DNA from: a virus
Reading direction: 5' to 3' (one strand)
DNA length: 64,000 bases
IMG/VR virus record: IMGVR_UViG_3300037493_000871
Location: 1 to 64,000 of that record
This document shows positions 1-49,166 of this stretch, in pieces. Every line of letters begins with the position of its first letter. Position 1 is the first letter of the stretch. Position numbers and translations under genes: made by a program. Below the pieces are notes generated by a model, which was not told the origin of the DNA, did no database searches, and saw only the letters and a program-made list of their open reading frames with translations.

Positions 1-270
1 TTAAATAAAAATAATTATATTATCTCTCTCTCTCTCTCTTGTTTTCCCTGCTTTTTACTGCCTTCTGTGGCCCTTAGTTCTCAAAAGGGATGTAGCAGTG
101 CCATTTGTAACATTGCGTTACATCGGTTACAAGCTTTCTTGTTGCTTTAGTTCTCACTCTCCCCCGCTTTTGTGCTCGCTCTCGCTCTCACACTCTCCCT
201 CTCGGTCGTACTACTATGACGTTGCGCCCTTAGGACGCATGGTGGGCACGCAGGTGCCAAACTCCAGACG
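1..270. other. gene-free left end, pyrimidine-rich
   Basis: No convincing gene is seen here. The first 22 bases are nearly all A/T, followed by eight TC units at 23-38. A second C/T-rich stretch lies around 150-207. A small inverted repeat GGCAC-GCAG-GTGCC lies at 245-258. The short frames that can be opened are low-complexity and lack family signatures. The region may be a contig edge or part of an untranslated region downstream of the leftward gene at 338-874. Confidence 0.6.
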
Positions 271-294
271 AAAAAAAGCCCCGCGTGGCGGGGC
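271..294 (-). terminator. strong rho-independent terminator for the 338-874 gene
   Basis: Read on the minus strand, a perfect 7-bp stem GCCCCGC / GCGGGGC with loop CAC is followed directly by seven T residues. It lies 43 bases after the stop codon of the leftward gene. Confidence 0.88.
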
Positions 295-43737: not shown

Positions 43738-43765
43738 ATTATACACTGTAAAATTTAGCTGTCAA
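43738..43765 (-). promoter_or_regulatory. consensus sigma70 promoter
   Basis: On the minus strand TTGACA (43765-43760) and TATAAT (43743-43738) are both perfect, with a 16-base spacer. The -35 lies inside the helicase 3' end. An 85-base leader, with possible pairing AAACCG/CGGTTT and GAGAA/TTCTC, leads to the gene at 43646. It drives the coiled-coil, SSB-like and HTH genes. Confidence 0.9.
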
Positions 43766-45344
43766 TGACTTGTTTGTAGAGCTCCACCAAATCCATGTGC
43801 AAGTCGATCTTGTTCTGGAGCATGGTGTATAGCCGCCGCTCAACGGGGCTGCCCTGCAAGTGTGTGATGGTGACCTTGTTGGTCTGCCCTGCGCGGTGAG
43901 CGCGTGAGTTCGCTTGCAGGTAAATCTCCGTAGATGATACAGGCCCCCACCAGACAACTTGGTTCGCTCTTGTCAGGGTAATCCCGTGCGCAGTAGCTTG
44001 TGGAATGAGCAGTAGTACCCGTGTGGTGTCCTCAGTCTGGAACCGCTTGATGATTTCTGCACGTTGCGTAGCTGCAACACCGCCATGAATACACTCCACA
44101 TCGTACCCACTGCCATCTTCCGACAAGCCGATCAGTTTTGGTAGGCGCTTGGCCAGTTCCGTGCGCAGCATCTCCATAGTGTGCCGATACGGCACAAACA
44201 CCAGCACCTTGTGCCGGGACTCTTCGATCACGCTCATAAGTTCTTCAAGCCGGTTGGTCACATCGAACTCAACCACGTCTCCATCGTCCGTATAGACTGC
44301 GCCCTGCGATACCTGCAAGAGCTTGTTCAGCATAGCGGCTGCATTGACCGCGGTAATTTCGGAGCCGGCGGCCACGGTAATCATTTGCTTGCGCAGCGCC
44401 TCGTAGTACTTGGTCTGCTGCGGCGTAAGCGGCACCTCGCGGGTTGCGTACAGCATGTCGGGCAAGTCAAGGCACTCTTCCTTAGTGAACCGTATCGCGG
44501 GCTGCAGCACCTGATGCACGATGCTCTGAGCCTCTTGCCGTGGGGCCCACTTGTACTGAGTCAGCTTGAGCATCACACGGTCACGGAACGCGCCAAAGAA
44601 GCGCGGCACGGCATCAGGGTTCACGAGCTTGGCCAAGCCGTACGCATCAAGCGGAGACTGCGAAGCAGGTGTGCCCGTCATCATCCACAAGCGTGTCGTT
44701 GGTTTAATCAGCGTAGCGAGGGCTTTCCACCTGTCTGTCGTCACGCTCTTGACGGCATTGGCTTCGTCCACAATCACAAGATCAAACCCGCCAGCTTCCA
44801 GCTCTTCGCGCACTACCTTGACGCCATCGAAGTTGATGACAATAAAGTCATAGTTGCCCTTGATGATGTTCTGCCGTTGTGTGCGTGAGCCCTGCGCAAT
44901 GGCTACTGTGCGGTGCATGACCGTCTTGAACAAGTCCGAGCGCCATGCAGTCTCCATGATAGACACGGGGCAGATGATGAGCACCCGCTTGACCTTGCCT
45001 TGCTGCATTAGATAGTCAGCGGCCCATGCTGCGGCACTGGTCTTGCCTGTGCCGGCCTCGTTAAACACAAAGCAGCGGGGGTTCAGTGTGAGGAAGTCTG
45101 CAGTGGTGCGCTGGTGGTCAAACGGGGTGAACATGCCCGGCCATTTGTACCTGCCCACGATGGGGCTTGGCACGTCCTTGATACCCAGATTGCGAAGCAG
45201 TTGCACTTCATCAAACCCCCAGTTTACGAGGACTTGATCGACGTCATCTTTGCTCGCAAGTATTTTGCTTTTTGGGATAAGGGCAGTGATCTGCCCCGCC
45301 TTACGTGTGTTGAACATAAGGGCTTTGGAGTCAACGATTTGCAT
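43755..45344 (-). CDS. SNF2-family DNA helicase/ATPase
   Basis: 529 residues. Walker A NEAGTGKT (95-102) and Walker B VDEAN (192-196), preceded by a Q-like FDHQR near 75. Motif III MMTGTPASQ and motifs V/VI VVWWGPVSSTEIYLQANSRA, HRAGQ are complete. It would remodel DNA or recombination intermediates. No Shine-Dalgarno is obvious before the ATG at 45344, an oddity, and an internal Met at residue 10 is an alternative. Confidence 0.9.
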   Translation of the reverse strand: MQIVDSKALMFNTRKAGQITALIPKSKILASKDDVDQVLVNWGFDEVQLLRNLGIKDVPSPIVGRYKWPGMFTPFDHQRTTADFLTLNPRCFVFNEAGTGKTSAAAWAADYLMQQGKVKRVLIICPVSIMETAWRSDLFKTVMHRTVAIAQGSRTQRQNIIKGNYDFIVINFDGVKVVREELEAGGFDLVIVDEANAVKSVTTDRWKALATLIKPTTRLWMMTGTPASQSPLDAYGLAKLVNPDAVPRFFGAFRDRVMLKLTQYKWAPRQEAQSIVHQVLQPAIRFTKEECLDLPDMLYATREVPLTPQQTKYYEALRKQMITVAAGSEITAVNAAAMLNKLLQVSQGAVYTDDGDVVEFDVTNRLEELMSVIEESRHKVLVFVPYRHTMEMLRTELAKRLPKLIGLSEDGSGYDVECIHGGVAATQRAEIIKRFQTEDTTRVLLLIPQATAHGITLTRANQVVWWGPVSSTEIYLQANSRAHRAGQTNKVTITHLQGSPVERRLYTMLQNKIDLHMDLVELYKQVIDS

Positions 45345-45455: not shown

Positions 45456-45740
45456 TCACTTTTTACGTTCGCGCTTAGAAATTTGCGACTTCATTGCGCC
45501 CGTCTTGGTGCGTGAGAAACTTGTGTTTTCAGATTGCGGCGCGGCTCTAAGATTAGCCAGTGTGGATGTGCCGCCCTTGGACATTGCCTTCTTGTGGTCA
45601 ACGTCAACAGTTGCAGGCAGATCGCCGTGGGCTTTCTCATAGGCCCGCCGCGCCTTATGGCGCTCAGACTGAGCAGCCAGTTGTTTTGGGGTGCCTTGGT
45701 ACCGCTCGTATTCCATTTTGAAATTGCGTGGTTTAGCCAT
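45456..45740 (-). CDS. small HNH endonuclease
   Basis: 94 residues, very basic. DVDHKKAMSKGG (46-57) with Asp48-His49, then ANLRA with Asn63, and SENTSF form the HNH core. The ATG at 45740 overlaps the exonuclease end by 8 bp. Could be a mobile endonuclease or a packaging/recombination nuclease. Confidence 0.82.
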   Translation of the reverse strand: MAKPRNFKMEYERYQGTPKQLAAQSERHKARRAYEKAHGDLPATVDVDHKKAMSKGGTSTLANLRAAPQSENTSFSRTKTGAMKSQISKRERKK

Positions 45741-46402: not shown

Positions 46403-46428
46403 AACTAGGTTTGTTGGGGCCCCTAGTT
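46403..46428 (-). other. inverted repeat between polymerase and exonuclease
   Basis: AACTAGG / CCTAGTT pairs across a 12-base gap at the end of the polymerase gene, with no T run after it. It may fold over the ribosome site of the exonuclease gene. Weak evidence. Confidence 0.4.
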
Positions 46429-49166
46429 TAACAGTCCCCGTACGATTCGCCCATCCCTGATTCACAGGCCAAAGGCAAGCCTGTCGCCCACTTGGGGTTC
46501 CAGCTCATGCACTCCTCCAGATAGGCTTGCGCCTCCTTGGCTTCTTCCTTCTTGGCGATGATGGCGATCGCATCATGCACAGTCAGCACCACCTTGTACC
46601 GCTTGGCTACGCGCAGCATCTGTTCGGCCACCACCTGCCTAGCTACCGCTTGGCATACGTTCTCCACGCAGTTATGAACTACAAAGGGTTCCGAATGACC
46701 TCGGACCATGAAGCGCGTTCTGGGTCCGGCGTTGAGGAGGTCATAGACAGGTTCCGGTGCCAGCGAAACGCGAGAGTCGATCTCGAAATACCCGTTACCG
46801 CATGTGCTTTCCGCAAGTCCACCGGCAGTGACCCCCTGCGGTTGGTCGCTTGTACCGCCATCGACACCCATCGGCAGTTTTCCGGGGTATACGACCCGTT
46901 GTTGTCCCGTCGATCCAACGTCAACCCCGAAGCGTAAGTTGGCCCCATGTCGGCCCAGAACGCCTCGAAAGACTGTTGCCATGCTGCGCATACAGTAACC
47001 CCACGCGCCCCGTAGTTGTGCCATGCCTGATGTGAGGGCAGTCGGCATCGGTCGCGCATCGACCTCCACACCCAATATGCGGGATGTTTGGACATTGCGT
47101 GCGTCTGGATTTTTGCCCCCACCATGCACCCGCACGAGGGGTGTCCCCCACGCTTGGCGTACTTCTCCGTGTCGATCGCTGCCCGTGTTACGCAACCCCC
47201 GCACTGGCATTGGAACTTCCACAGCGACCTGCGACCGTCCGACCCCATGTAGTGCAGGGCCGTCAGGTATCCGAACTTCTGCCCGGTGTAATCCTTCGCA
47301 CGCTGATGCATCGCGCCAACCTTTCTCTGTAAGTACTTTGTGGTCCGGCGTCATCCGAACACCGTCTACCACGATGGTATGCTTTTCGCCTTGGTATGTC
47401 AACCCGCCATGTTGCACCCATTCAACCCCGTCCCAAACTTGATCGTCTTGTCGCACCGATCCGATAGGAATCCACCCCCGATGCGTTAGGACTTGAGTAT
47501 CTCCTGCCAAACATTTGCCTCCATAGATACGCACAGGCAGCCCCTTGGATGTGTACACAAGCTCGCGCTTGCCCTCGTCGCCAATGTGAGCCCGTAGGCC
47601 CGGGTACTGGATGTGCAACCCATTGGGTAGGGTCAAGCCCGCGCCGGGTATTGCGTTCACAATGCCTATTGCATCGACCTGAATAGACTGGCCCTGCATC
47701 AACGCCGTAAGGCCGTTGCCGGCCCGTTGCCAGAACGCTGCGATGTGCCCTGCACTAGACCTGTATGCGTCAATAATGCGCTTGGCTTCTTCCAGAGTAA
47801 CTTCAACCCCTGCCTGTGTCTTTAAGAACGCCTTGAGCTTAACGTGCCCAACGCCATAGCCTGCGCCCAGCACAACCGTCTTGCCCACCTGCCGCTGGCT
47901 ACCTGCTCCGGTGGTCACCTGCTCCACGGGGATGCCGTAAATCTTGGATGCCATCAGGCTGTACACGTCCTGCTTGTCCCTGAATGCTTGCAGCAAGTCC
48001 TCCTGCCCGGCCAGCCAAGCCAGCACACGGGCCTCAATCTGCGCGGAGTCACAGTCAATCACCACGTAACCTTCTGGGGCCCTGATGGCCTTCTTGATCT
48101 TGCCAGCGTCTGCGCCGCGTGACGGCAGGTTCTGCAGGTTTACAGAGTCTTGGCCAGACCAGCGACCAGAATGGGCCCCGTAGTAACGCAGAGGTACAGG
48201 AAACTTACCTCGACCAGACATGCCAATAAAGCGTTGCGTACGAGTCTCTTCAAGTGTTGTCTTGTTTCCAAGGCGGGCGGCGACAAGCATTTGGACTCGT
48301 ACATCAGGGTGCTCCATCAACTCTTTGAATGCATCATCGGTTTTGGCAAATGCATAGGCCAGCTTCTTGGTAGTGGCGCTGATCTTCGTGGGCGGCACAA
48401 CGCCGTAGTTCTCCAGCACCAAGGCAAACTTGGGGTTTGACATGAGCAGCTTCTTGATGCCATCCATGCCCTCGCTGAAGATCGTATGCACGTACTCGGG
48501 CTCGGCGTCTTTCAGCATGAAGTCCCGCACACTCTCCATCAAGGCTTCCTTGCGGTCTTTGACTTCTTCCAGATGCGCAACCAGCATGGGTTTGTCTAAT
48601 ATTAGAACGGGGTCGATGAACATGCGCAGCGTCAGGTCAATCAGCTTGAGCTCGGACTTGGGGAACCCAAGGTTCATGTACTGCATGAACAAGTCGTAAG
48701 TCAGGTTCACGTCATTGCAGCAGTACTCACCGTAGCGTTCCAACTCATGCCATGTGAAGTCAGCGTAGTGCTTGCCCTTGGCGTTGTCCACCTCGTTGCC
48801 CTTCACACCAGCCACCATGCGTTCAGCTTGCGCTTTGAGACTGTGCGACCTCTCATGCGGGTACAGCGCACGAGACATACCCATAATGTCTACCCACGCC
48901 ATCGGGTCAACGCCGTAGTGCCACTTCAGCACAGCACCATCGAACGCAGTGTTCTGGCACACCACGATCTTGTCCGACCAATCAATGCTGGCCAGCACGC
49001 GCTCTACGTCAGGCTTAGGCACCCATACGGTTGGGCCGTTGTCGATCTTGTATGCGAACCCAATGGTTTCCCACTGGGGCCCACGCACGTACTCTTCGGT
49101 CGTCAGCTTGGAGAAGCCAAAGTCCTGTGAGTAGTAAGTTTCTAGGTCGATTGTTAGGATGCTCAT
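46428..49166 (-). CDS. family A DNA polymerase with intein
   Basis: 912-residue precursor; after splicing 631 residues. The N-terminal 3'-5' exonuclease starts ILTIDLETY (Asp7, Glu9). Polymerase motif A is DCDSAQIEARVLA (about 368-380), motif B RQVGKTVVLGAGYG (about 420-435), motif C VHDA near 862 (the usual HDE is HDA). The intein occupies residues 552-832, between YGGK and CVENVCQAVARQ, where other polymerases read KLVENV. No 5'-3' nuclease domain. One palindrome copy lies at 48595-48606. The start overlaps the next gene's stop (ATGA). Confidence 0.93.
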   Translation of the reverse strand: MSILTIDLETYYSQDFGFSKLTTEEYVRGPQWETIGFAYKIDNGPTVWVPKPDVERVLASIDWSDKIVVCQNTAFDGAVLKWHYGVDPMAWVDIMGMSRALYPHERSHSLKAQAERMVAGVKGNEVDNAKGKHYADFTWHELERYGEYCCNDVNLTYDLFMQYMNLGFPKSELKLIDLTLRMFIDPVLILDKPMLVAHLEEVKDRKEALMESVRDFMLKDAEPEYVHTIFSEGMDGIKKLLMSNPKFALVLENYGVVPPTKISATTKKLAYAFAKTDDAFKELMEHPDVRVQMLVAARLGNKTTLEETRTQRFIGMSGRGKFPVPLRYYGAHSGRWSGQDSVNLQNLPSRGADAGKIKKAIRAPEGYVVIDCDSAQIEARVLAWLAGQEDLLQAFRDKQDVYSLMASKIYGIPVEQVTTGAGSQRQVGKTVVLGAGYGVGHVKLKAFLKTQAGVEVTLEEAKRIIDAYRSSAGHIAAFWQRAGNGLTALMQGQSIQVDAIGIVNAIPGAGLTLPNGLHIQYPGLRAHIGDEGKRELVYTSKGLPVRIYGGKCLAGDTQVLTHRGWIPIGSVRQDDQVWDGVEWVQHGGLTYQGEKHTIVVDGVRMTPDHKVLTEKGWRDASACEGLHRAEVRIPDGPALHGVGRSQVAVEVPMPVRGLRNTGSDRHGEVRQAWGTPLVRVHGGGKNPDARNVQTSRILGVEVDARPMPTALTSGMAQLRGAWGYCMRSMATVFRGVLGRHGANLRFGVDVGSTGQQRVVYPGKLPMGVDGGTSDQPQGVTAGGLAESTCGNGYFEIDSRVSLAPEPVYDLLNAGPRTRFMVRGHSEPFVVHNCVENVCQAVARQVVAEQMLRVAKRYKVVLTVHDAIAIIAKKEEAKEAQAYLEECMSWNPKWATGLPLACESGMGESYGDC
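46671..47513 (-). mobile_element. intein in DNA polymerase
   Basis: 281 residues. N-terminal block A begins CLAGDTQVLTHRGW with Cys1 (precursor 552). Block B is MTPDHKVLT with Thr55 and His58 of the intein. The end is VYDLLNAGPRTRFMV then FVVHN, block F/G with the penultimate His and Asn832, followed by Cys833. No LAGLIDADG or in-frame HNH is present. About 190 residues between blocks have no family signature in this frame but are free of stops. An HNH gene overlaps this part in another frame. Confidence 0.93.
46679..47311 (-). CDS. HNH homing endonuclease nested in intein (+1 frame)
   Basis: 210 residues, same strand as the polymerase but shifted by +1. The ATG lies in the codons right after block B, with GAAAGG 8-9 bases upstream; the TAG falls 5 bases before the intein's last Asn codon. 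Cysteines 35, 37, 40, 60 and 62 look zinc-binding. The core (80-159) has WRSMRDRC, YGARGVTVC, W111, TLDRRDNNGSY and NCRWV, the hallmark of phage HNH homing enzymes. Residues about 165-185 look like a HTH. It would cut intein-free polymerase genes. Confidence 0.85.
   Translation of the reverse strand: MHQRAKDYTGQKFGYLTALHYMGSDGRRSLWKFQCQCGGCVTRAAIDTEKYAKRGGHPSCGCMVGAKIQTHAMSKHPAYWVWRSMRDRCRLPSHQAWHNYGARGVTVCAAWQQSFEAFWADMGPTYASGLTLDRRDNNGSYTPENCRWVSMAVQATNRRGSLPVDLRKAHAVTGISRSTLAFRWHRNLSMTSSTPDPERASWSEVIRNPL
48595..48606. repeat. TCTAATATTAGA palindrome, copy 1
   Basis: Inside the polymerase exonuclease region, encoding LIL of VLILDKP. The most leftward copy, 5.7 kb from its neighbour. Confidence 0.85.

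Follow-up and report, generated by a model that had tools for sequence, protein, structure and literature searches.

A family-A DNA polymerase gene in the stretch of viral DNA analyzed here (the window, 64,000 nucleotides in its whole length) carries an insert that is coding in two frames. In the polymerase frame the insert supplies the two ends of a predicted protein-splicing domain, and in the +1 frame it contains a complete HNH gene with its own start codon (Table 1). We interpret the insert as a mobile intein in which the homing endonuclease is not part of the intein protein but an HNH protein of its own, translated from an internal start in a second frame of the insert; to this reading we assign a probability of roughly 85%. 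A preliminary description, made from the sequence alone, had proposed an intein at 46671-47513 overlapped by an HNH gene running from 47311 to 46679 in the +1 frame, with an ATG and a GAAAGG ribosome site of its own; the coordinates and frames proved exact, and the start codon and ribosome site were confirmed in the sequence.

Table 1. Features of the intein-containing polymerase gene and of the HNH gene nested in it (window positions)
Feature	Position	Strand	Details
Family-A DNA polymerase ORF hosting the intein	46428..49166	(-)	912 aa, open throughout; Pfam DNA_pol_A 3e-36; PHROG 17 DNA polymerase 5.8e-95
Intein (predicted)	46671..47513	(-)	281 aa, C1 to N281, equal to polymerase-ORF residues 552-832
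Polymerase residue right after the intein, Cys (C+1)	codon 46670-46668	(-)	from the sequence
Splicing domain, N-terminal part, intein residues 1-89 (predicted)	47247..47513	(-)	AlphaFold; intein-wobble variation over codons 1-67
Block B TxxH (TPDH), intein residues 55-58	47340..47351	(-)	TxxH in 102/102 inteins
Splicing domain, C-terminal part, intein residues 250-281 (predicted), VYDLLNAGPRTRF...FVVHN	46671..46766	(-)	pLDDT 86-91; within the Z 15.4 alignment
HNH endonuclease ORF	46679..47311	(-)	210 aa plus stop, ATG start; +1 frame relative to the intein, offset 202 nt from C1
GAAAGG Shine-Dalgarno-like site of the HNH ORF	47320..47325	(-)	inside the intein EKGW codons; spacer to ATG 8 nt
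First dual-coding segment	47238..47312	(-)	intein codons 68-92, HNH codons 1-25; 4-fold sites low in both frames
HNH-only core	46758..47237	(-)	intein codons 93-252; intein frame merely kept open
Second dual-coding segment	46679..46757	(-)	intein codon 253 to HNH stop; blocks F/G and HNH C-terminus

The insert follows the polymerase residues RIYGGK, begins with CLAGDTQVLT and ends with FVVHN, and it is in frame with its host, as polymerase families are matched on both of its flanks. C1, T55xxH58, and H280-N281 are invariant in alignments A1 and A3, and the window intein also has VYDLLNAG and an HN-C junction. Recognition by standard profiles is weak: NCBIfam intein_Nterm matches the intein frame at E=0.0015, below the cut-off, and a Pfam scan of this frame returned no match. 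An AlphaFold model computed with 25 aligned sequences has a confident β fold at both ends, with pLDDT values mostly about 90 at residues 1-70 and of 60-70 up to residue 90, and no confident fold at residues 90-248 (pLDDT <50). When the model was compared with solved inteins, Z reached 15.4, the predicted ends aligning with the Mtu RecA splicing domain over 121 residues (rmsd 2.0) that span 1..281. By this structural prediction the insert is an intein with a HINT fold, the two ends of which together form a complete splicing domain, and it is a single open frame, not two separately encoded halves. Protein splicing of the polymerase precursor is inferred, no experiment having been done. The same data bear on the possibility that the insert is a group I intron, or another RNA element, with an HNH ORF and a host frame that is open only by coincidence. 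Phage group I introns often contain HNH ORFs, and the gp38/39 pair of Sodalis phage SO-1 is annotated as an intron, but neither the conservation of C1, TxxH, HN, and C/S+1 nor an intein fold at Z 15.4 nor a host frame without stops would be expected of such an element. Rfam intron models found nothing in the window even at E<=1, and nothing at gathering thresholds in 13 loci. A group I intron, without Rfam support, was accordingly rejected, and we regard an RNA element of any kind as extremely improbable.

Searching both frames of the insert against protein families, as the preliminary description had suggested, gave a much clearer answer for the HNH frame, which matches PHROG 374 (HNH endonuclease) at 3.7e-54, than for the weakly recognized intein frame. 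The predicted HNH model is folded (mean pLDDT 80) and finds viral HNH protein structures in BFVD (E 1e-17), and the profile of the HNH family matches I-HmuI (E 0.004). Pfam scans of the HNH protein gave nothing useful, and a Foldseek search of its model, which is multi-domain with loose linkers, against the PDB returned only noise. The usual first His of the HNH motif, part of a DH pair in I-HmuI, is Arg in the nested family, with DR or ER in 88 of the 89 nested sequences in which the motif pattern was found; thus, cutting is not to be assumed from the motif, and DNA cutting or nicking by the nested protein is inferred without experimental evidence.

Of the 76 +1 representatives, 75 have a start codon shortly downstream of block B, at nt 172-223 from C1, and 43 have an ATG, GTG, or TTG at nt 202 exactly. 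An SD-like 4-mer precedes the nt-202 start in 32 of these 43 loci, where the intein amino acids by themselves would give 28.8 ± 1.3, so the site is only slightly commoner than those amino acids predict, and the EGW/KGW motif nearly supplies it. At the other end, the HNH stop codon in most cases lies inside a conserved splicing motif, either VYDL[IV]N or VHN. In principle, the HNH protein could arise not by internal initiation but by programmed frameshifting off the polymerase-intein frame, as a fusion of the intein N-part to HNH, given that the HNH frame is open slightly upstream of the ATG, in most cases to nt 163 or 184 from C1. This would confine the slip to some 18-40 nt, however, and it would leave unaccounted for the near-universal start codon within about 172-223 nt, the SD-like site before it, and a start residue that is invariant in the HNH alignment A4, although the rows of this alignment were cut at the proposed start. 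We therefore judge frameshifted expression very unlikely and retain internal initiation.

To place the window intein among its relatives, phage records and IMG/VR were searched with either frame, and viral contigs and bacterial genomes were then searched with an intein profile. This yielded 102 distinct inteins in which an HNH gene is nested out of frame, 89 at +1 and 13 at -1. C1 and the terminal His-Asn are present in all 102 (the HN end also served to place the intein end), and the following residue is Cys in 99 and Ser in 3. Carriers of the +1 arrangement include Caulobacter phages RW, RLK, KcrB, and GB2A, several Hamiltonella APSE phages, and Shewanella phage SFCi1, and the -1 arrangement occurs in Jerseyvirus and Dhillonvirus members, Pseudomonas phage MR14, EBPR siphovirus 2, and Vibrio phage 97.13. 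The loci are mostly not from actinobacterial phages, and the close relatives of the window are all metagenomic. Insertion sites include no fewer than three positions within polA, as well as one region in the gene for a phage DNA helicase. Nesting probably arose more than once, because both +1 and -1 offsets occur at the polymerase motif-B site. 

Most textbook mobile inteins have their endonuclease in frame, and on general grounds, although no result here supports it, the window locus might be such an intein broken by a sequencing error or a recent frameshift mutation. The preliminary description had itself named relatives with HNH in the polymerase frame, or a local indel, as what would refute nesting. 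Among all loci found through the intein profile not one has HNH in the intein frame; this check used the HNH profile of the nested family, which an unrelated in-frame endonuclease could escape. The offset, moreover, is kept in all of the +1 and -1 inteins, the intein frame is open across HNH in every one of them, and the C-terminal splicing block and the HNH boundaries are conserved. Since the layout is kept in 102 distinct inteins, it is a real recurrent architecture and not an error; a frameshift artefact is thereby ruled out, and we give this explanation practically no credence.

Selection acts on both frames. When synonymous HNH codons are shuffled in 80 representatives (60% clusters), 473.5 stops are expected in the intein frame, and none is observed, so the two-frame layout, kept as it is in 102 distinct inteins, is far beyond chance, even though sequences within clusters are related and the counts are not independent trials. 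By comparison, the third frame has 4-23 stops per locus, and free-standing HNH relatives have 7-37 stops in the frame corresponding to the intein frame. The zero count is partly conditioned by searches with intein profiles, which need a recognizable intein, but a search based on HNH only is not, as it does not select for an open intein frame; all relatives that it found at 45% identity or more nonetheless have the frame open. Among 11 close relatives, variation is concentrated at the intein third position in codons 1-67 (0.544) and at the HNH third position in codons 93-240 (0.54). Within the HNH frame, positions 1 and 2 are conserved and position 3 is free, indicating strong purifying selection.

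Fourfold-degenerate sites resolve this pattern along the insert. Variation at intein-frame 4-fold sites is 0.645 before HNH and 0.691 in the final three intein codons, which follow the HNH stop, similar to the wobble of adjoining polymerase codons (about 0.65). In the first dual-coding segment it falls to 0.067/0.058 in the intein frame and 0.227/0.390 in the HNH frame, compared with about 0.65 where sites are free, and in the second segment to 0.242 and 0.268, respectively. In the core between them, the HNH frame is free (0.658-0.669) and the intein frame is not (0.057-0.118). From this distribution it follows that both frames are under constraint at the edges and only one in the core. There is thus genuine dual coding at both edges, over about 25 codons where HNH starts and about 26 where it ends, and the middle is HNH coding sequence that makes only the demand of no stop on the intein frame. 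A natural control is provided by differences in HNH length. In 37 inteins whose HNH ends 56 nt or more short of the intein end, the intein wobble of the last 27 codons is free (0.69-0.72); in contrast, in 31 inteins whose HNH ends only 8 or 11 nt short of it, this wobble is suppressed (0.35-0.59) at codons 4-27 from the end. This contrast directly supports a sharing of constrained bases between the splicing block and the C-terminus of the endonuclease, a proposal of the preliminary description that is borne out, with both frames under selection.

Several observations are those expected of a mobile element. Comparing relatives with and without the intein shows the out-of-frame HNH to be conserved and identifies 80 related polymerases that lack the insert and are 70-88% identical to that of the window. 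In the closest of these (locus L057, 87% over the site), RIYGGK-VVENVCQ stands in place of the RIYGGK-[intein]-CVENVCQ of the window, and the Val of this intein-free allele suggests, from sequence comparison, that the +1 Cys arrived together with the insert. Between the window and locus L009, nucleotide identity is 86% in the intein and 70% and 74% in the polymerase flanks, and over 72 loci the similarity of HNH agrees only weakly with that of the polymerase (rho 0.37). Intein similarity tracks polymerase similarity only loosely, as it would for a mobile element, although differing rates instead of transfer could partly account for this. In the homing cycle, rare endonuclease decay is expected. 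In three loci (L203, L221, and L232), the nested HNH has one stop codon and the intein frame is intact, which fits endonuclease decay after fixation, with sequencing errors not excluded. It remains conceivable that the intein is still spliced but that the nested HNH lacks nuclease activity or has a different function, for example marker exclusion between phages. The replacement of DH by DR/ER and the three interrupted HNH genes beside intact inteins are compatible with this, but an inactive protein would not readily explain strong purifying selection on HNH, and a patchy distribution with empty sites, together with rare endonuclease decay, is what homing predicts. We consider this alternative unlikely and favor a homing endonuclease.

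If the nested HNH protein is indeed a homing endonuclease, then the following sequence of events can be envisaged. Ribosomes translating the polymerase would read straight through the insert, the two ends of which would fold as a HINT splicing domain, with the middle read as unstructured filler; the intein would then excise and the polymerase be rejoined, as inferred from the splicing residues and fold. Other ribosomes, again by inference, would initiate at the internal ATG just past block B, possibly aided by the purine-rich site that the EKGW codons provide, and produce the 210-aa HNH protein. This protein would cut intein-free polymerase alleles at RIYGGK/VEN. Repair of the cut would then introduce a copy of the insert and, in place of the flanking Val, the Cys required for splicing; cutting and homing alike are inferred. 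Selection would maintain the HNH protein, the open intein frame and, at the shared edges, both proteins.

Inteins are taught as one polypeptide that splices and, if mobile, cuts DNA. Here, splicing and cutting would be divided between two proteins read from the same bases. With the two jobs in two proteins, a dedicated start site can govern how much endonuclease is made, and with the same bases in two frames, neither protein mutates freely at the shared edges. The locus is also a clear example of dual coding in nature, for which the elements whose HNH stops early serve as an internal control. Like mobile inteins with an in-frame homing endonuclease, for example PI-SceI, PI-PfuI, and Mtu RecA, the window intein has the same (predicted) splicing fold, conserved splicing residues, intein-free alleles, and an endonuclease between blocks B and F; in those inteins, however, the endonuclease is in frame, whereas that of the window is a separate out-of-frame protein whose ends overlap splicing-domain codons. 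Because standard libraries barely recognize such inteins, they have been missed or mislabelled. The same architecture is already annotated as two overlapping genes in Hamiltonella phage APSE-1 (NC_000935, P45/P46, +1) and in Sodalis phage SO-1 (NC_013600, gp38/gp39, -1), in the latter labelled as a type I intron.

The preliminary description had been aware of no intein with an endonuclease nested out of frame. For an insertion with a splicing domain this stands insofar as our literature search found no paper describing the APSE-1 or SO-1 pair as an intein with an out-of-frame endonuclease, but an out-of-frame HNH as such has been published. In the gp65 methylase of mycobacteriophage ShiLan, the inserted ShiLan domain keeps the host frame open across an out-of-frame HNH and is mobile by its distribution (PMC11855218). 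It resembles the window insert in this layout and differs in that, according to its authors, it has no splicing domain, a separate intein being reported in gp65 (PMC11855218). Consistent with this, our intein profiles matched in ShiLan gp65 only an N-terminal intein block elsewhere in the protein, and the ShiLan HNH gave no meaningful match to the profile of the nested HNH family. The same paper cites Gosselin, Arsenault and Gogarten (bioRxiv 2025.01.02.630785) for frequent overlapping frames in actinobacteriophages. The title of that preprint ("Actinobacteriophage inteins: ... non-canonical architecture") and this citation, the parts of it available to us, suggest a possible overlap with the present finding, and similar cases may already have been described there.

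Split inteins, which are widely used as tools, reportedly include forms with the endonuclease gene between the halves ("fractured genes," a term associated with Dassa et al. 2009). In these the endonuclease is a separate ORF between N- and C-intein; the window intein, unlike them, is contiguous, made as one precursor and fully overlapped. Only three loci (L024, L161, and L035) look like fractured genes. They carry an upstream intein in the same polymerase, in which the N-part ends in a stop and HNH lies between the halves in another frame. In the polA split intein of L024 (1153-2107), the 105-aa N-intein ends at TAA 1468, the HNH gene (1379-2107) overlaps both halves, and the C-intein ORF starts at ATG 2061; the C-intein ORF of L161 likewise has its own start codon. 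A transition from nested to split organization is a plausible interpretation of these three loci, and nested inteins such as that of the window are plausible intermediates towards split inteins. More generally, inteins with an out-of-frame HNH might constitute a distinct class that is widespread among the replication genes of phages (polymerase and SNF2-type helicase). Nesting would have arisen at least twice in this class (+1 and -1, both at one polymerase site), and loss of the open host frame would be a route to natural split inteins whose halves flank an endonuclease gene, as the three loci suggest. We consider the arguments for and against this general scheme evenly balanced.

Other loci show further variation. 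Related mini-inteins of 119-178 aa without a nested HNH (L228, L231, L239, and L240) are possible remnants after endonuclease loss. Two Gardnerella vaginalis contigs (L235 and L237) have a nested +1 intein at the polymerase motif-B site, in which the HNH frame extends 22 nt beyond the intein into the host gene. In three loci (L014, L015, and L192), inteins with an HNH nested out of frame interrupt a phage DNA helicase; this helicase resembles the helicase ORF of the window (43755-45344), which itself is without an intein. Finally, downstream of the polymerase, the window has a second small, free-standing HNH-type ORF at 45456-45728 (-) (DVDHKKAMSKGGTSTLANL).
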